Of a stretch of 64,000 bases of DNA, positions 34,944-49,114 are shown one piece after another; the stretch's first letter is position 1; each line of letters begins with the position of its first letter. The position numbers were made by a program, and so were the translations under genes. Origin of the DNA: Verrucomicrobiota bacterium. Its GTDB lineage: Bacteria; Verrucomicrobiota; Verrucomicrobiia; Chthoniobacterales; JAFAMB01. The DNA is taken from assembly GCA_019247695.1 (NCBI GenBank), contig JAFBAP010000116.1, positions 1-64,000 of the forward strand, read 5' to 3'. The notes beneath the pieces are model-generated. The model made no database searches. It was not told the origin of the DNA and worked only from the letters and a program-made list of their open reading frames with translations.

Positions 34944-35165
34944 ATGAATTCGAACTTTCCATCACCGCGCACCCGGTTTCGCCGGGCGGTCGAAGCCGTC
35001 CAGGTGATTAAGGACGACAACAGCTGGGAAGTTTTCCGCTTGGGGGAACCTTCCCTCAAGTTCCGGCACAGGGAAGAGGCCCTTGACGCTGCACGGAAAA
35101 GCGCTGCCTTGCATAAGGTGGGGATTTTAGTGCACGAGTCCGGGCATGCTGCCCAGGTTGAATAA
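34944..35165 (+). CDS. Small DUF2188-like protein
   Basis: 73 residues. The middle, VIKDDNSWEVFRLGEPSLKF, then HREEALDAARKSAALHKVGI and LVHESG, resembles the short alpha/beta DUF2188-type domain (a tryptophan strand, then a helix beginning with a run of acidic and Ala residues, then LVxH). The function of such proteins is unknown. Its last 20 bases overlap the start of the next gene, so the two are likely translationally coupled. Confidence 0.55.
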   Translation: MNSNFPSPRTRFRRAVEAVQVIKDDNSWEVFRLGEPSLKFRHREEALDAARKSAALHKVGILVHESGHAAQVE

Positions 35166-35796
35166 CCGGGGTTCGTCCCGGCCGGCATCGAACGCGGTTT
35201 TCGTCAATTGCCCGTTCGACCCGGAGTACAAACCCATATTCGACGCGGTGGTGTTCGCCGTCCACCGTTGCGGGTTCCTGGTTCGATGCGCCATGGAAGA
35301 TTCCGACAGTAACGTCGTGCGGATCGAGAAGATCATGCAGATGATCGGGGAATCGGATCTTGGAATTCACGATCTCAGCCGGGTCGACACGCAGGGCAGC
35401 CTGCCGCGATTCAACATGCCTTTCGAGCTTGGCTTGTTCATCGGCGCGCAGCGGTATGGCTCCAAACGGCAACGGCGGAAGCGGTGCCTGATTTTGTCGG
35501 GTGAACCTCACCAATATCAACGGGTCATCTCGGATATCGCGGGTCAGGACGTCGACTCGCACCTGGGAAAGCCGGAAGAGGCCGTGCGCGCTGTCCGGCA
35601 ATTCCTTGTCCAGCATGCCCCGAGGGGCGCCAGATTGCCGGGACGCGATCGCATCCTGGAAGATTACGGCCATTTTCAACGGCTGTTACCCGGCCTGCTC
35701 GAAGTGGCGGGCCAGGATCGGGAGTCATTGACCTTCCTGGAGTTTCGCGGGTACGTCCGGGACGTGGTTGCCCGCCAGGCATTGATAATCGGGTGA
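35146..35796 (+). CDS. Conserved hypothetical protein with VFVNCPFD motif (possibly TIR- or nucleotide-binding-like)
   Basis: 216 residues. The N-terminal strand and helix AVFVNCPFDPEYKPIFDAVV, then GESDLGIHDLSRVDTQG, LPRFNMPFELGLFIGAQRYG and RKRCLILSGEPHQYQRVISD form conserved-looking blocks. The alternating strand-helix order and the NCPFD start resemble TIR or nucleoside-deoxyribosyltransferase-like folds, sometimes linked to defence, but this is inference from pattern only. It overlaps the small DUF2188-like gene by 20 bases. An HU-like DNA-binding protein follows 81 bases later. Confidence 0.6.
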   Translation: MLPRLNNRGSSRPASNAVFVNCPFDPEYKPIFDAVVFAVHRCGFLVRCAMEDSDSNVVRIEKIMQMIGESDLGIHDLSRVDTQGSLPRFNMPFELGLFIGAQRYGSKRQRRKRCLILSGEPHQYQRVISDIAGQDVDSHLGKPEEAVRAVRQFLVQHAPRGARLPGRDRILEDYGHFQRLLPGLLEVAGQDRESLTFLEFRGYVRDVVARQALIIG

Positions 35797-37282: not shown

Positions 37283-38287
37283 CTCGATCCTTTTGGGCCG
37301 GCATCAGCTTACGCGCCTTGCGGGCCGGAGCAACGAGACCGGTCCTGGGCGTGACCCAGGCGTGCAGCCAGAACAGGTCCGTGTTCTCTCTCCCCCCGGA
37401 CCTGTCCCCGCTCGAGCCACCCGGGGGCGCGTTTCGGGGCAGGAACGTCCTCGGGCCGGCAGTGGTTTTGGCGAAGGCTTGTCGCCAGGACACCGAGCGC
37501 GTCAGGGCGGGTCCGGCGTGGGTAAGGCGGGCACAAGGCGGACCTGTCCCCTTTCCTTGCGGGCCTGTCCCTTTCGGCCCGGGCCTGACCTGGCGCCTTC
37601 GAGACCTGTCCCTGTTTCTGTCGAGGTGTTTCGGGGGCACTTACGACCTGTCCCCATCGGCGCACCCTTGAGGTCTGTCCCTGTGGCACGCGACCTGTCC
37701 CCATCAGTATGCGTGTTGTGACCTGTCCCTGTTTTCGGCGCGGCCTTGGGGCCTGTCCCTGTTGGCGTGCCCAGGGGGTGTCGGCGCCGGAAGATGCCCT
37801 GTAGCTGGTTGAATCGCTCTTAGGCCGAACGGGCCGGAAGGCGATCTGATGGCCTGAAAGGCCAAAGGAACTTAGCCCAGGGTTTACCCTGGGTAACCGT
37901 CAAATCACGATCGAGCCCTGAAGGGCGGCAGAAGGCGTGGCTCACGGGTTCTGCCGCCCCTTCAGCAAATCCAACCCGGCGGGGCGGGTGTTTGTTAGGG
38001 AGGGCGTACAGGCGTGACGTCTTAGGAGGGCTGATTCGGGGGGGAAACGCCTTCTCAGGGTGGAAACCTGGGCTAAGTTCCTTTGGCCCTTCAGGCCATC
38101 AGATCGCCTTCCGGCCCGTTGAGCCCAGACCGTTTATACGGTTTAATAGGTGTAACGCCGGCAGGGTACCTGGGAAGGAAAATAAGATTTTACCTCAATG
38201 GCCGTCGAAATGGTATCAGTTCAAGCCGTATCGCGTTCCGTACCAAGGGCGCGGAGAATGTCAGGAGAGCGGCCTGAAGCCAAGAAG
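37283..38287. repeat. Repeat-dense intergenic zone: GACCTGTCCC cluster and TAGCCCAGGG element pieces
   Basis: From about 37398 to 37765 the word GACCTGTCCC or a one-base variant occurs about nine times (for example near 37398, 37541, 37562, 37611, 37647, 37671, 37693, 37721 and 37749). From 37772 the sequence CAGGGGGTGTCGGCGCCGGA begins a stretch shared in reverse with 41.5 kb, then GGCCTGAAAGGCC and TTAGCCCAGGGTTTACCC. From 38063 to 38216 a second partial copy ends in CGTCGAAATGGTAT. Short open frames here are repeat products, not genes. Confidence 0.75.
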
Positions 38288-41257: not shown

Positions 41258-41563
41258 ATACCATTTCGACGGCCATGAAGATAAAATCTTGACTGCCTTC
41301 CCAGGTGCCCTGCCGGCTTTATACCTATTAGACTGTATAACGGGTCTAGGCGATCGTGATTTGACGGTCACCCAGGGTAAACCCTGGGCTAGGTTCTTTT
41401 GGCCCTTCAGGCCATCAAACGCCCCTTCGGGGCTGAAACCCGCTCGAAATTCCACCAAGATAACTGTCTGAATGGTGTATGACCGATTCAACCAGCTACG
41501 GAGCATCCTCCGGCGCCGACACCCCCTGAGCGACATTCTACCGAGAAACTGTCTGAATGGTAT
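41258..41563 (-). repeat. MITE-like element, composite copy
   Basis: Read on the minus strand, an outer end (ATACCATTCAGACAGTT, ending at 41563) leads into a block CAGGGGGTGTCGGCGCCGGA shared with 37.8 kb, then a second start of the same kind (at 41480) leads into TTATCTTGGTGGAATTTC, the GGCCTGAAGGGCC and TAGCCCAGGG hairpins and a right end CGTCGAAATGGTAT at 41258. It looks like one element inserted beside or into another. Confidence 0.7.
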
Positions 41564-42229: not shown

Positions 42230-42499
42230 ATGGCTGAGCTCATCTTTCTCCTCTCCGCCTACATCGATATCCAGCAGGCCTACAACGTTTACAAGGAGTA
42301 TCAGGTGGGCCGGGGTGCGATTTTCACGCGACATTTGGACGTGGCTTTTGGCCATTTGCGAATGTTTCCGGAGATCGGACCGTTATTTCACGGCAATTAC
42401 CGCCGGCTGCTGGTGCCCCGCTTCCCTTATGGGACAATTTTGGCCGCGAGCCCAGTGATGAACGCAAATCCTTTGGCACTCAAGAGGTTGAACAGTAGG
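42230..42499 (+). pseudogene. Truncated ParE/RelE-type toxin
   Basis: The ORF starts well: AELIFLLSAYIDIQQAYNVY, then FTRHLDVAFGHLRMFPEIGP and NYRRLLVPRFPYGTIL match the first two thirds of ParE toxins up to the RRxLVxRFPYG motif. After that the family needs a beta strand and a catalytic-edge end (IVVxAVLDxRQ), but the sequence turns into unrelated text. An internal loss or frameshift after codon about 65 is inferred, so the toxin is probably inactive. The open frame itself continues to 42643 without family features. Confidence 0.65.
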
Positions 42500-42576
42500 C
42501 GTCCACGATCTGGGCCGAAGTCAACGCTTACCGGTACACTGCACTGTGGGAACGATCCGCTGGCTTACTATCCTTG

Positions 42577-43545
42577 CTACCGCAGAAAGGCTCCGAACCG
42601 TTCTTTTCGATGCCATTCCAGCGCTTCCGGGTGCGGCCGGTAGAGATTCTCTTTTGGAAGCAGAATGCTTCTTCCTTCCGCATCGATGATCGGAAAAAGC
42701 TGATAGCTCGCGTTTCGTGCTTCCGGGTGGATGATGACCTCGTACTGATCCGAGATCGTGAAAATGCCCCGGTCAAAAGCCCAATGGGCTGTGCGGGATA
42801 AAGCCAGGCCGTTGCGGGGATCGTCAGGACCCCGATGCTCTTTGCCGATAATGTGGGCCGCTTCAGCCTCGATGTGAGGTCCATGCACGAACCGCTGGCC
42901 CGTTACGGAACAGGTGAACGCGTAGTTGCTCAACACAATTTCCCTGAAAACCGCTTCGCGTTTCTGGCGGCTCACCTGGTAAACGGCTCGGTTTTCCTGC
43001 ACCACTGCGGTCCATTCCTCCAGGCTCTCGAGTCTCAGCGCAGTTTCCAGTAAATCGTCGGAGAGTTCTTCCTGCCCGTACAGGTACCTGGAAACTTCTT
43101 CCACGTGCATGCCTCGGATTCGAAAAAGACCGGATTGCGATTCAAAAGTTTCGATCAGCCCGAGCCCTGCAATGAGGTAAGTCGAGCCCTCACGATCCAT
43201 TTTGCTCGTGACCTGGCGAAAAACCAGGACCGGCTCGCGGTCTTCGCTGCATCGCACCAGCGCTTGATTTGAGGAGATCTCGAGTCCTCCGGCCTTCGGG
43301 CTGTAAAGCATCGTCCAGCTACGATCAAAGAGGTACTCGATCCTGTCCGTGTAAGGGCTGGACAGCATCGACGTAATCGAAAGCGCGTGGCTTGACCAGT
43401 GCGGCTTGTAGATACCTTCGGCAAACGGATGGAGGATGTGGCCGAAGCGTTCGGCGTCGCGCAGGACGCGGGCCGGCTGGATCGTACCGAAAAGCGGTGC
43501 AACCCGCCGGAAGATGCCGATTCGTTGATCACGTTCACCAGCCAA
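42577..43545 (-). CDS. HNH endonuclease (HNH_2 type), second gene of putative defence operon
   Basis: 322 residues, probable TTG start with AGGAGGGGAG about 13 bases upstream. The C-terminal HNH domain (about residues 225-265) reads EAEAAHIIGKEHRGPDDPRN, then GLALSRTAHWAFDRGIFTI, with the His-Ile, Asn-Gly and His-x-x-Phe-Asp elements of HNH_2. The N-terminal 200 residues contain SSPYTDRIEYLFDRSW and RGMHVEEVSRYLYG and have no named domain; they may sense DNA or partner protein. It begins 47 bases after the end of the helicase-nuclease gene on the same strand, so the two are probably one operon. Confidence 0.8.
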   Translation of the reverse strand: MAGERDQRIGIFRRVAPLFGTIQPARVLRDAERFGHILHPFAEGIYKPHWSSHALSITSMLSSPYTDRIEYLFDRSWTMLYSPKAGGLEISSNQALVRCSEDREPVLVFRQVTSKMDREGSTYLIAGLGLIETFESQSGLFRIRGMHVEEVSRYLYGQEELSDDLLETALRLESLEEWTAVVQENRAVYQVSRQKREAVFREIVLSNYAFTCSVTGQRFVHGPHIEAEAAHIIGKEHRGPDDPRNGLALSRTAHWAFDRGIFTISDQYEVIIHPEARNASYQLFPIIDAEGRSILLPKENLYRPHPEALEWHRKERFGAFLR

Positions 43546-43592
43546 CGACGCACCAACCTCCCCTCCTATATTTCAGGAGGTTCAACACACCA

Positions 43593-46500
43593 TCAACCGG
43601 TTTTCATCGGTGAAAGGGTGTTTGCCATCAATGCCCCATCTCCTCGCGCCCGGGCGGCTCCCGCCGCGGCAATCGCCTCGCGGATCCGGGTAAGTTCGCC
43701 TTGCGGGTTGCGGAACCAGTCGGTCGACCAGACTCGGTGGACACGCCAGCCCATGCCCTCCAGAATGCTCTGGCGGAGCCGGTCGCGGTCGCGGGCGGAT
43801 TTGGAGGAATGGTAGGAGGCGCCGTCGCATTCGATGGCCAGGATGAAAGAGCCGGGCTGGTCCGGGTCGCGCACGGCGAGGTCGATAAAATACCCGGCGA
43901 CGCCGAGCTGCGGCTGGCAGTCAAACCCGAGGCTCTGCACGGCAGCGATGACCTGTTGCTCGAACACACTATCGGGCGGACGCGGCGGCAAACTGGTCGA
44001 CGGGAGACGGCCGGTCCGGGCAAACTCGAGGTAGCGCTGCAGGCTTTGGGCGCCGGCGCTGCTTTCCGAGGTCAGCTTGAGTTCGTCGGGGCGGAAGGAC
44101 GAGTAGACGTGGACCCGTTTGCGGGCCCGGGAGAAGAGAACGTTGAGGCGGCGCCCGCCGTTCCGGCCGTTGATGGGCCCGAAGTTCCGGTGCAGCACGC
44201 CCTGGGGATTGCGGCCGTAGGTGATGGAAATGAAGATGACGTCGCGCTCGTCGCCCTGGACGTTCTCGAGGTTTTTTACAAAGACGCGCTCGCCGCGGTC
44301 AGTCTCCAGCCGCCCGGCGCCGGCCTGAGCAACGGCATCGTGCTTAAGGCCGGTCTCCAGGAGGTCCTCAATAAGGGCGGATTGGACTGAGTTCATCGCG
44401 ACCACGCCCAGGCTTTCGCCGGGCCGGTGCCGGAGGTGATCCATGACGGCCTCAACGACGGCGGCAGCCTCGATCTCGTTTTTGCTCCCGGCATACTGGC
44501 CGGCGACTTCGATGAATTTAACGCCGTACTCAGGGGATTTTTCGTGGACTGAGGGAAACAGGATGAGTTCGTTGTCGTAAAACTCGGCGTTGGAAAACGC
44601 GATGAGGGACGGGTGCCGGGACCGGTAATGCCAGCGCAACAGGCGGGCGGGCTGGTATAGGCCGGCGGCGGCGTCCAGGATGCTTTCCGATTCCTGGATG
44701 GCGGCAAGGTCAACGTTCTCGTCATCGTCGAGATGATCGTCGCCGAAGTTGGATTCGAAAAAGGACGTCGGCGGCAACTGTTTGTTATCACCCACGATGA
44801 CGCACTGCCGGCAGCGGGCCATCGCGCCCAGGGCATCCTCGGGCCGCATCTGGGAGGCCTCGTCCAGGACGAGGAGATCAAACTGAAATTTGCCGCGGGC
44901 CAGGTACTGGGAGACGGCGAGAGGCCCCATCATGAAGCAAGGTTTCAAGGCAAGCACAGCGTTGGCCGCACGCGAAAGGACGTCGCGCACCGACCCGCGC
45001 GGCACCTGTAAACCGATCTGGTGCTGGAGAAGAGCCAGTTCGGTCTTCCCGCCCGTCCGGGCCGCGTTGATCCCGGCAGAAACGGGCCGTTGCGCGAGCC
45101 GGGTGGCGATCATCCGGCGGGTGAGCGCCTGAAATTCGCGGTCGCGCGCCTGGAACTGTTCCTGCACGGCGTCCCATTTTCCCAGGGTGCTCCGCAAAGC
45201 CGGATGTGCCCGCTGGAGTCGCCGGGCCAATGGTTCCCAGGTGAGGTAATCGAGGAGGGTGCGGCCGAGTCCGGGAGCGACACGGTGATCCAGGATGGCG
45301 CGAGTAACCGGACCTAACCCGAGCTCCCGAAGCGACGCGCATAGTTCGTTGAACTGAAGCCAGTGATCGAGTTTTTCGTTTTCCGCCAACGCCCGGTGAA
45401 TCCGGTCCCGCGTGCGCGTCAGGGGCTGATCGGGGTGATGCCAAACGGCGGGAGCCAGCCCGCCAAAGGTAGCAAACCGGCTGAACGCATCATCGAAGGC
45501 CAGGTAGGCGCGTTGCAGGTCGCGGAAACTCGCCAACCACTGGTCGAGGCCCGTATTCCCGCGTTCGATCATTGTCTTCACCACGGATTGCAGCAGGGCG
45601 CGATCGGGGGTTGCGGCGGCAAGGGCGCGCCAAAGGACCGATTGCCGGGCGAGTTCGGCCCGGCTGGTATCGATTCCGCGGTAATGCTGCGGTCCGAGAA
45701 CGTGGTCCCACCGGCGTCCACAGACGTGCGCCAGCGCGCTTTGGAGGTCTTTGAACCCGGTGAAGGCAACCGGGAGAACCGCAAGTGGTAATGAGTCCGC
45801 CGCAACGCCGCCGGAGAGGGCGTCCACGCTGCTTTTGATGGCTTGTGCAACCGGCAGGATAGACTGGAACCCGGCGAGTGCAGGATCGGATTCGAAAGTG
45901 AGTTTGAGGTAATCGGCGCCTTGCCGGAGGGTGCGGCAGAAGCCGGTGAGGGCGTCGCCTCTGCCGCCACTGAAATAACCTTTCAAAAACGTGAGCCGGT
46001 CAGGCGACAATGAGAAGAGGAACTCGCGGCAGCGCCGTTCAATGGCTGAACCGGAAATCGGGAACTGGCGATCGATGGTTGTGACCCAGTCGCGGGCCCG
46101 AGCCAAGTGCGCCAGGTCGGTTGTGATGCCGCTGAAGGCCGGTCCGAAGGCGGCGATGTAAACCGGGTTTTTCTCGAACTCTTCGAGTGCGAGTTTCCAG
46201 TCGGCGAGGCGGTTTAGCACGGCGGCGGTGACCTTGTAGCCGGGCCGGCGGGTTTTGTCCTTCTGCCAGACTAACAGACGTTGACGGGCTTCCCGGCAGC
46301 CTTTGCTCAGGAAAGGGAAAAACCTGTGTCCGGCCAGGAACGCGGCTTCCTTTAACAGTTCCTGCGCGCCGGGTAGTTGAGAAACATAATAGTCCTCGGT
46401 TAATGATTGGCCTTCCGCGTTGATCTGACCAGCCTCGGCGGCGGCTTTTGCCAGCGTGGCGGAAAATTCCGGGGTCAGCAGCGCTTGCGGGGTGACGCCG

Positions 46501-48746
46501 GGGACGTGGTCAGCGTCACGGAGGAGTTGGATCAACCGCGCGGCGAGCTCGAGGTCAGCGGGTGAGGCGGCAAAGGTTAAGGAGAAAGTTTTTTCCAGTT
46601 CGTCCAGAGAGGCGCTGATGCCGGGCAGGTCAGGCTCCAGGCTCAGCAGGCCGGTTAACCATTGCCGGAGCCTGCCGAGGGTCATGCCGGGACCCGGAGT
46701 TGAGTTGATATCGTCAGAGAGGGAAAGGAAGGCCCCGAGTGAGGTTAGATCGGATTGCTGGAGGCGGCGCGACTGCAGGGTGGCTGCCAATTGCCGGCTG
46801 TGGTTGAGGAGGCGCCCGAGGCAGGCCAACACTTCATCCGCTTCCGTGTCGCCCGAAGAGGCATGGAGGTTAAGCCAGCCGAAACACCAGCAGTCGCGGC
46901 CGGCCCGGAGCAGATCGGCTAACCGAAAACATTTCTGGAGGTTTGGGGTGGTTAGTTCGAAGGTGGCGCCGTGTCCGGTTAGGAAGCGGCCGGCCAGGGC
47001 GAGAAGCGTATCGAGGGCGTCCCGGGCCTGGTGCAGGCGGGCGATGATTTCGGCCTGCGCAGCATGATCGGCGGCGGTGGTTTGCAGTCCGTGCCAGGGA
47101 TGCCGGTCGAGTGTGGTTTGGCCGGGGCAGACAATCCTCGTCAGGAGTTGGAATCTCTCCAGTTCAGCGATGAACGGTTCGAAGCGTGCCGGGTCGATGG
47201 CATCCTTGTCGAGGTCGAACAGGGCCGAGAGCGTCTGTCCATCGCCGGATTGATGGGAATCGACGGTTAACCGGCTCCGGGCGGCCAACGCCAGAATCTG
47301 CTGCAGCGTCTTGCCTGAGACCGGCTCGATTTCGTTCAGTTCGAGCACGAGCGCCTTGAGTTCGTCCCAATGACCGCGGAGCCGGGCTTTTACCTGGTCA
47401 AGGTCGCGCGGCTCAGGAAACCTGGCGTTGAGCCGGCGTCGAAGGTCGGCGTAAAAATGCCGTTTGTTGGCGTTCTCGCTGTGCAGCTCAAGGCAAAAAT
47501 CACCCAGGCCGGCTTTGGCCAGCCGCTCTTTCACGACCTGCAGCGCGGCCAGCTTTTCGGCGACGAAGAGGACGGTTTTGCCTTGCTCAAGCGCGGCGCC
47601 GATAATGTTGGTAATGGTCTGCGATTTGCCGGTGCCGGGCGGCCCCTGGATGACCAGGTCCCGGCCGTTCAAGGCATCGAGGATGGCGCTGTGCTGGCTG
47701 CTGTCTGCGTCCTCGATCAAAGGCAACTCGCGTTGGTCAGGCGGCAGCTGGTCGATTGGAAAATCATCGGCATGCCAGGAATCGCCGGATTTTTGGCCTT
47801 CAAAGAATTCGCTGACCCGAGGGTTTTGCAGGAGCAGACCGGGATCCGGCCAGTTGGCCGGGTCCAGGTCCTTGTGCATGACCATTTTGCGAAACTGGAG
47901 CAGCGCCAGGGTGGCGCCGCGGCAGATCCGCCACCGGTCCTGCCGGGTCTTGATGGCGCGCGCGCAGGCCTCGAAGTAGCGTTCAGGGGTTTGCTCCTCG
48001 CCGGGAACCGGGAACGCGAAGCCGAAATCAAACTGCAGTTTCTCGATGAGCGATAAGTTCGGCATGAGTTCTTCCTCGGTAAAGGCGAGGTGGAACTCAT
48101 AGGCATGGCCGGCGGCGTTTTGGGTCCGGCGGATTTGCACGGGGATGAGCAGGAGGGGCGCTAGGTTCGGCTGGTTCGAGTCGTCACTCTCAAACCATTC
48201 CAGGAATCCCAGGACCAAGTGCAGAACGTTGGACCCGGTTTCTTCGACGGCGAGGCGGGCAGCGTTCCTGATATTCTGGCCGCGGGCCTCGAGTTCGTCC
48301 GGGAAATAAAGGGTGTTGATCAGGCGGGCCGGATCGACCCGCTCAAGGAGATCATCACCGGCAGCGGCGCAAGGCAATTCGAAGGTGCATGCCAAGCCGT
48401 AAACGGTTTCGGCGATGAACCTGGCCTGGGGGGCGGTTTTGTCGCCCCGGGCGTTTTTGCCCAGGGCGGTGAACGCTTCTTCCTGTTCGGGGGTGAGGGC
48501 GCCGGGTTTGGGCCTCGGCACGGGCAGGAGGCGCAACTCTTTTTTCCTGGTGACGAGGCGTTCGTATATCCAGTCCGGCGCAAGGTTGAACAGCCGGAGC
48601 GATTTGGCCGTGTGCTTAAAATTGAGCAGCCGGTTGTTTCGGCTCAGGTCGAGGAGGCGACCCCGGAGGTTCTTGAGTCCTTCGGCGGTATCGCCCTGGA
48701 AAAGCACCGATTCCCCCGCCGGTGTTGATGGCGCGTCCGAACTCAT
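43593..48746 (-). CDS. DUF4011-like/SF1 helicase with C-terminal PD-(D/E)XK-like nuclease domain
   Basis: About 1,717 residues. The N-terminus (LKNLRGRLLDLSRNNRLLNF) matches the DUF4011 start. SF1 motor: Walker A QGPPGTGKSQTITNII (about residue 367), DEASQMRPEDALGAMA (about 1297), VVGDNKQLPPTSFF, RWHYRSRHPSLIAFSN and NVLFSRARKRVHVY. The last 130 residues form a nuclease-like domain: GYFIDLAVRDPDQPGS, LAIECDGASYHSSKSARDRD and WSTDWFRNP (Vsr/DUF559-like). Helicase-nuclease fusions of this kind are seen in phage-defence contexts; activity is unproven. The start skips a repeat-derived leader (MVFFHSWQLWHFS). Confidence 0.85.
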   Translation of the reverse strand: MSSDAPSTPAGESVLFQGDTAEGLKNLRGRLLDLSRNNRLLNFKHTAKSLRLFNLAPDWIYERLVTRKKELRLLPVPRPKPGALTPEQEEAFTALGKNARGDKTAPQARFIAETVYGLACTFELPCAAAGDDLLERVDPARLINTLYFPDELEARGQNIRNAARLAVEETGSNVLHLVLGFLEWFESDDSNQPNLAPLLLIPVQIRRTQNAAGHAYEFHLAFTEEELMPNLSLIEKLQFDFGFAFPVPGEEQTPERYFEACARAIKTRQDRWRICRGATLALLQFRKMVMHKDLDPANWPDPGLLLQNPRVSEFFEGQKSGDSWHADDFPIDQLPPDQRELPLIEDADSSQHSAILDALNGRDLVIQGPPGTGKSQTITNIIGAALEQGKTVLFVAEKLAALQVVKERLAKAGLGDFCLELHSENANKRHFYADLRRRLNARFPEPRDLDQVKARLRGHWDELKALVLELNEIEPVSGKTLQQILALAARSRLTVDSHQSGDGQTLSALFDLDKDAIDPARFEPFIAELERFQLLTRIVCPGQTTLDRHPWHGLQTTAADHAAQAEIIARLHQARDALDTLLALAGRFLTGHGATFELTTPNLQKCFRLADLLRAGRDCWCFGWLNLHASSGDTEADEVLACLGRLLNHSRQLAATLQSRRLQQSDLTSLGAFLSLSDDINSTPGPGMTLGRLRQWLTGLLSLEPDLPGISASLDELEKTFSLTFAASPADLELAARLIQLLRDADHVPGVTPQALLTPEFSATLAKAAAEAGQINAEGQSLTEDYYVSQLPGAQELLKEAAFLAGHRFFPFLSKGCREARQRLLVWQKDKTRRPGYKVTAAVLNRLADWKLALEEFEKNPVYIAAFGPAFSGITTDLAHLARARDWVTTIDRQFPISGSAIERRCREFLFSLSPDRLTFLKGYFSGGRGDALTGFCRTLRQGADYLKLTFESDPALAGFQSILPVAQAIKSSVDALSGGVAADSLPLAVLPVAFTGFKDLQSALAHVCGRRWDHVLGPQHYRGIDTSRAELARQSVLWRALAAATPDRALLQSVVKTMIERGNTGLDQWLASFRDLQRAYLAFDDAFSRFATFGGLAPAVWHHPDQPLTRTRDRIHRALAENEKLDHWLQFNELCASLRELGLGPVTRAILDHRVAPGLGRTLLDYLTWEPLARRLQRAHPALRSTLGKWDAVQEQFQARDREFQALTRRMIATRLAQRPVSAGINAARTGGKTELALLQHQIGLQVPRGSVRDVLSRAANAVLALKPCFMMGPLAVSQYLARGKFQFDLLVLDEASQMRPEDALGAMARCRQCVIVGDNKQLPPTSFFESNFGDDHLDDDENVDLAAIQESESILDAAAGLYQPARLLRWHYRSRHPSLIAFSNAEFYDNELILFPSVHEKSPEYGVKFIEVAGQYAGSKNEIEAAAVVEAVMDHLRHRPGESLGVVAMNSVQSALIEDLLETGLKHDAVAQAGAGRLETDRGERVFVKNLENVQGDERDVIFISITYGRNPQGVLHRNFGPINGRNGGRRLNVLFSRARKRVHVYSSFRPDELKLTSESSAGAQSLQRYLEFARTGRLPSTSLPPRPPDSVFEQQVIAAVQSLGFDCQPQLGVAGYFIDLAVRDPDQPGSFILAIECDGASYHSSKSARDRDRLRQSILEGMGWRVHRVWSTDWFRNPQGELTRIREAIAAAGAARARGDGALMANTLSPMKTG

Positions 48747-49114
48747 GGAAAAATGCCACAATTGCCACGAGTGAAAAAATACCACAAATGACGATCACTG
48801 ATTCGTGGCAGTCGCGGCATTGTTTGGCTTGCGGCATTTGCCCGGAGCGCTCGTGACATGCCCCGGTTTTAGCATTCAAATGGCGCAAGTGAAATGCCGC
48901 GATTGGCCTGAGTGGAAAAATGCCGCGGATGGAGGTTAGTCACTTGTGGCGTTCGTGGCATTTTTCGGCTTGTGGCATTTAACGTCTTCGCCCATTGAGG
49001 CAGCGGAACGGGCGCGGCGCCTCCGGATTCCGCACCCGACACCCGACACTCGGCACCCGACGCTCCACTTCTCCATTTGTGGCATTTTTCGGCTTGTGGC
49101 ATTTGTGATATTCA
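48747..49114. repeat. GCCACAAATG-family repeat tract
   Basis: The gap upstream of the helicase is packed with variants of AAAAATGCCACAAATG and its reverse complement (ATTCGTGGCAGTCGCGGCATT, GTGGCATTTTTCGGCTTGTG), ten or more copies in 370 bases, plus one CACCCGACACCCGACAC tract. No independent gene is seen; the promoter of the helicase must lie within or beyond it. Confidence 0.8.

Follow-up and report, generated by a model that had tools for sequence, protein, structure and literature searches.

A divergent Hhe/ProA-group helicase-nuclease gene and a likely SRA-HNH restriction endonuclease gene lie in tandem in a genus of Verrucomicrobiota

Two complete open reading frames, encoding proteins of 1,717 and 322 residues, lie in tandem on the same strand of the window (the whole 64,000-nt stretch of DNA that was analyzed) with 47 bases between them (Table 1). 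The TTG start of the smaller gene is preceded by AGGAGGGGAGG. The frames bear out the layout given in the original prediction, and Pfam recovered the DUF4011, SF1 helicase, Vsr/DUF559-like nuclease, and HNH_2 domains named there.

Table 1. Features of the two-gene locus, in window coordinates
Feature	Position	Strand	Basis and remarks
Gene for putative Hhe/ProA-type anti-phage protein, 1,717 aa	48746-43593	minus	DUF4011, split SF1 helicase, and MTES_1575 nuclease; family profiles, alignment
DUF4011 domain, aa 30-237	48036..48659	minus	Pfam PF13195, E 1.5e-34
SF1 helicase motor, aa ~348-1547	44106..47705	minus	Pfam, alignment
C-terminal PD-(D/E)XK-type nuclease MTES_1575/DUF559, aa 1595-1692	43671..43964	minus	Pfam, alignment; YFIDLAV...IECDG motif intact
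114-nt run identical in two species	43471..43584	minus	Covers the gap between the genes and codons 1-25 of the HNH gene; inter-species alignment
Predicted hairpin AACCTCC...GGAGGTT	43555..43582	minus	RNA folding; stem takes up the HNH gene's Shine-Dalgarno sequence
Gene for putative SRA-HNH modification-dependent endonuclease, 322 aa, TTG start	43545-42577	minus	Pfam, alignment, AlphaFold model with Foldseek
SRA-like reader domain, aa ~36-146	43108..43440	minus	Foldseek with predicted model
HNH_2 nuclease core, aa 212-264 (H231, N245, H254, D258)	42754..42912	minus	Pfam, alignment

In the 1,717-residue protein, Pfam detected DUF4011, an SF1 helicase (AAA_11/AAA_12), and a Vsr-like C-terminal nuclease of the MTES_1575/DUF559 type (E 4.9e-37). 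The helicase is divided into two blocks, with about 900 residues separating motif I (GPPGTGKS, aa 368) from motif II (VLDEAS, aa 1293), and the later motifs follow at aa 1372, 1496, and 1532. Walker A, Walker B, motifs IV to VI, and the nuclease motif YFIDLAV...IECDGASYH were all intact in an alignment with ten relatives. The protein scored 1381 bits on the NCBIfam Hhe model (NF042953; curated cutoff, 2000 bits) and 1081 bits on the ProA model (NF058533; curated cutoff, 1500 bits), below the cutoff in both cases. The best PADLOC match was PDC-S37 (1171), with Hhe at 953. As a yardstick, an annotated Hhe of Vibrio, about 35% identical to this protein and alignable with it at the motifs, scored 2198 bits on the Hhe model. 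Domain order, helicase motifs, nuclease motif, and organization as a single large gene are the same as in Hhe, and the DUF4011-helicase-MTES_1575 core is common to ProA and PDC-S37. However, the N-terminal part of ProA (about 350 residues) is missing, the match beginning at profile position 359. Judged by these sequence comparisons, the protein is a divergent member of the Hhe/ProA group and takes a place between the two curated families. Of 241 genomes of the phylum, 43 had relatives that passed E 1e-60, and 441 plasmid records contained a match at a looser limit. The open literature yielded no account of the mechanism of Hhe, and the mode of action was therefore deduced from the domains: the DUF4011 part would sense or load onto invader nucleic acid, the SF1 motor would move along it, and the C-terminal nuclease would cut it. 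The same genome also encodes a clear ProA-family anti-phage protein on another contig (C152:39496-45552, locus L103; 1972 bits on the ProA model).

HNH_2 (E 2.2e-11) was the sole Pfam domain of the 322-residue protein, and its N-terminal region had originally been described as of no known type, with a profile search suggested. Scanning genome contigs with the single sequence yielded nothing, but an alignment-based scan did find homologues, and the resulting alignment comprised 17 sequences, including a few incomplete ones, from Verrucomicrobiota, Acidobacteria, and Aminicenantes. The profile of this alignment retrieved TagI from the PDB sequences at E 6.6e-7, aligned through both the SRA and HNH regions. 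An AlphaFold model built from the 17 sequences had a mean pLDDT of 72 and was best in the reader domain; an earlier model of this type from 4 sequences was too poor for use (pLDDT 40). Foldseek placed TagI first for the later model (E 1.7e-6, probability 1.00), followed by the SRA domains of KRYPTONITE, SUVH5, and SUVH6 (probability 1.00) and then by other modification-dependent enzymes. The overall TM-score to TagI was low (0.26 to 0.29; rmsd, 19 A), probably because the placement of the domains differs or is poorly modelled. In the nuclease core, H231, N245, and H254 were invariant and D258 nearly so among the 17 aligned sequences. Their TagI counterparts, H229, N245, H254, and D258, are reported to be required (PMC6212794). 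The N-terminal region is thus, as far as profile and predicted fold can tell, most likely an SRA-like modified-base reader. Since such a reader is joined to HNH residues matching those of TagI, the protein is most likely a type IV, modification-dependent restriction enzyme.

The SRA-HNH endonucleases TagI and ScoA3IV share with the 322-residue protein the N-terminal SRA fold, the C-terminal HNH domain, the catalytic residues, and a similar length (311 aa for the known enzymes), but their sequences are very divergent from it, and the Cys pair of the structural zinc site of TagI is not kept at C212 (CxxT). The Pfam SAD_SRA model misses the protein and matches only one of the 17 family members, at E 0.08, and the PDB sequences yielded no SRA structure when searched with a sequence profile restricted to the reader domain. 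The SAD_SRA scan of the organism's own genome gave no match, but its positive control was also silent. These comparisons add to the SRA-HNH enzymes a divergent subfamily, present in Verrucomicrobiota, Acidobacteria, and Aminicenantes, which Pfam, NCBIfam, and PADLOC do not identify as SRA. For both genes, the family and structure matches support the defense role that had been predicted. A scan of viral contigs gave no match. A Vibrio phage (PQ189353.1:37795-39075, locus L113) encodes a distant homologue, 27% identical across 90% of the query, next to a gene noted as PD-Lambda-5.

The original prediction also held that the pair forms one system with two nucleases. We therefore consider a true two-component defense system, in which the helicase protein would detect or unwind invader DNA, the SRA-HNH protein would act as a second effector, and both would be needed. 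Such a system would fit the finding that the two genes also adjoin each other, on one strand, in the second species of the genus (L020), where the proteins are 89% and about 80% identical to those of the window. However, the loci of these two species are the only 2 of 17 SRA-HNH homologue loci in which a large DUF4011 helicase adjoins the gene. A tblastn search with the large protein over the 16 loci outside the window found it adjacent only in L020, and in L041 a 29% match lies about 8 kb away. Conversely, the SRA-HNH gene was absent from all 20 Hhe/ProA-like loci inspected in the phylum. These counts come from 57 related genomes and 388 genomes of the phylum, where pattern-based scans miss distant copies and some contigs end near the genes. 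Elsewhere, the SRA-HNH gene directly follows type I restriction-modification operons (L022 and L041), has a type I HsdR gene some 3 kb away (L039 and L042; in L039 it also has an SBD-HNH-like gene beside it), or adjoins a retron II-A-like reverse transcriptase and a relative of the NDT-type effector, with a short frame between those two (L036:9992-13165); the remaining loci have no recognized defense neighbor. Each partner is moreover a complete single-gene architecture, as in Hhe and TagI. The distribution is not that of a two-gene system conserved across genomes. Helicase genes without the HNH gene, and HNH genes mostly located elsewhere, had been named beforehand as the pattern that would count against a joint system, and this is largely what was found. 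The co-occurrence check thus upheld the pair in two species of one genus and found the genes apart in all other loci inspected. Because the partners live apart outside the genus, the claim of a two-nuclease system largely fails, and we regard a true two-component system as unlikely. In another family of the phylum, a different HNH protein with another N terminus is encoded directly downstream of a truncated Hhe/ProA-like frame (L100:5971-6822).

The junction between the genes also bears on a two-component system. The longest identical run between the two species, 114 nt in 5,153 aligned columns (83% identity), covers this junction and was unmatched by 2,000 triplet shuffles (maximum, 91). RNA folding pairs the Shine-Dalgarno region of the HNH gene with AACCTCC just upstream, which would mask it. 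A 67-nt piece that includes the TTG start and the stop codon of the upstream gene folds at -21.6 kcal/mol (z, -3.24; 1 of 200 shuffles as good), a z-score that is optimistic because the piece was picked by eye; a 151-nt junction fold had a z-score of only -1.75, not clearly better than shuffles. The element is known from two species only, without covariation, and Rfam had no match for the junction. Past the HNH stop codon, the DNA of the two species immediately becomes unalignable, indicating that the pair is kept together while the next sequence differs. No sigma-70 promoter-like site was seen on the genes' strand in the region. The sequence pattern at the junction, together with the 47-base gap, looks like an adaptation of the pair to joint expression within the genus. 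Such expression is plausible inside this genus only; translational coupling is likewise plausible on the strength of the predicted fold. A mobile repeat was considered for the hairpin and rejected, as it has one copy in the genome and is absent upstream of other SRA-HNH genes.

We consider it quite likely that the locus holds two independent defense genes of known kinds, both divergent, that are transcribed together as one unit in this genus. The junction hairpin would probably silence the HNH gene unless ribosomes finishing the large gene open it, and such coupling would hold in check a nuclease that could harm its own cell. The locus is weak evidence for a new two-nuclease system; the junction is a concrete, testable case in which coupling may restrain a modification-dependent nuclease. 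It is doubtful that matters go further, to a genus-specific composite defense in which a translation-coupled SRA-HNH endonuclease is produced at a constant ratio to the Hhe-type helicase-nuclease, under control of the RNA hairpin, and works jointly with it.

The SRA domain of the HNH protein would flip out and bind a modified cytosine (by analogy with TagI, 5mC or 5hmC-like), the HNH domain would cut near the bound base, probably as a dimer, and the protein would attack modified phage DNA or DNA with foreign methylation. A C5-cytosine methylase (PF00145) was not found in the organism's own draft assembly, which is 97% complete (the control was positive in 10 of 14 genomes). This absence is expected of a genome with a 5mC reader, although in a draft it carries little weight. 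The SRA domain could instead be degenerate, with specificity arising elsewhere, as in HHPV4I, which has an inactive SRA domain and reads m6A through a winged helix (PMC10101028). Few viral sequences match the HNH half, the HHPV4I gene being one of them, and the candidates Y65, D67, and Y81 for the counterpart of the flipped-base pocket of TagI (Y55, D58, and Y67) could be assigned by pattern only. However, Y65, D67, W77, and Y81 were near-invariant across Verrucomicrobiota, Acidobacteria, and Aminicenantes in the 17-sequence alignment, and the segment linking the reader and HNH domains is short, which makes a degenerate SRA domain improbable. Recognition of phosphorothioated DNA, as by the SBD-HNH endonucleases SprMcrA and EcoWI (NF045808), whose linker and HNH half are related to those of the protein, is very improbable, because the NF045808 match (aa 143-317; 89.7 bits, against a cutoff of 180) covers the linker and HNH domain and not the N-terminal reader, which differs from that of the SBD-HNH enzymes and matches SRA domains in fold.

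The defense island that had been proposed around the pair is thin. Its toxin-antitoxin genes stand (a PIN/AbrB-like pair and an Unstab_antitox gene with a short partner), whereas the TIR-like match is weak and the repeats just upstream of the large gene are not particular to the region. The TIR-like candidate, a 216-aa protein (35146-35796), carries VFVNCPFDPEYKPIFDAV near its start and weakly resembles the CAP12/Pycsar TIR domain (E 0.016, below the cutoff). The short partner frame of the Unstab_antitox gene (42230-42643) runs, on the opposite strand, into the 3' end of the HNH gene; Pfam gave no match for this frame, which may be truncated, with only its first part resembling a ParE/RelE-type toxin by eye. 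The GTGGCATTT-TTCGGCTTGTGGCATTT repeat upstream of the large gene (48811-49104) was rejected as a defense feature, as it belongs to a genome-wide intergenic family (83 copies with 2 mismatches or fewer) in which some copies form opposed pairs; it is probably an intergenic element of REP-like or small inverted-repeat type. The 38- to 41-kb stretch is flanked, at 37769-38216 and 41258-41531, by long repeats, both inverted and direct, of 51 to 94 nt that are 82 to 94% alike.
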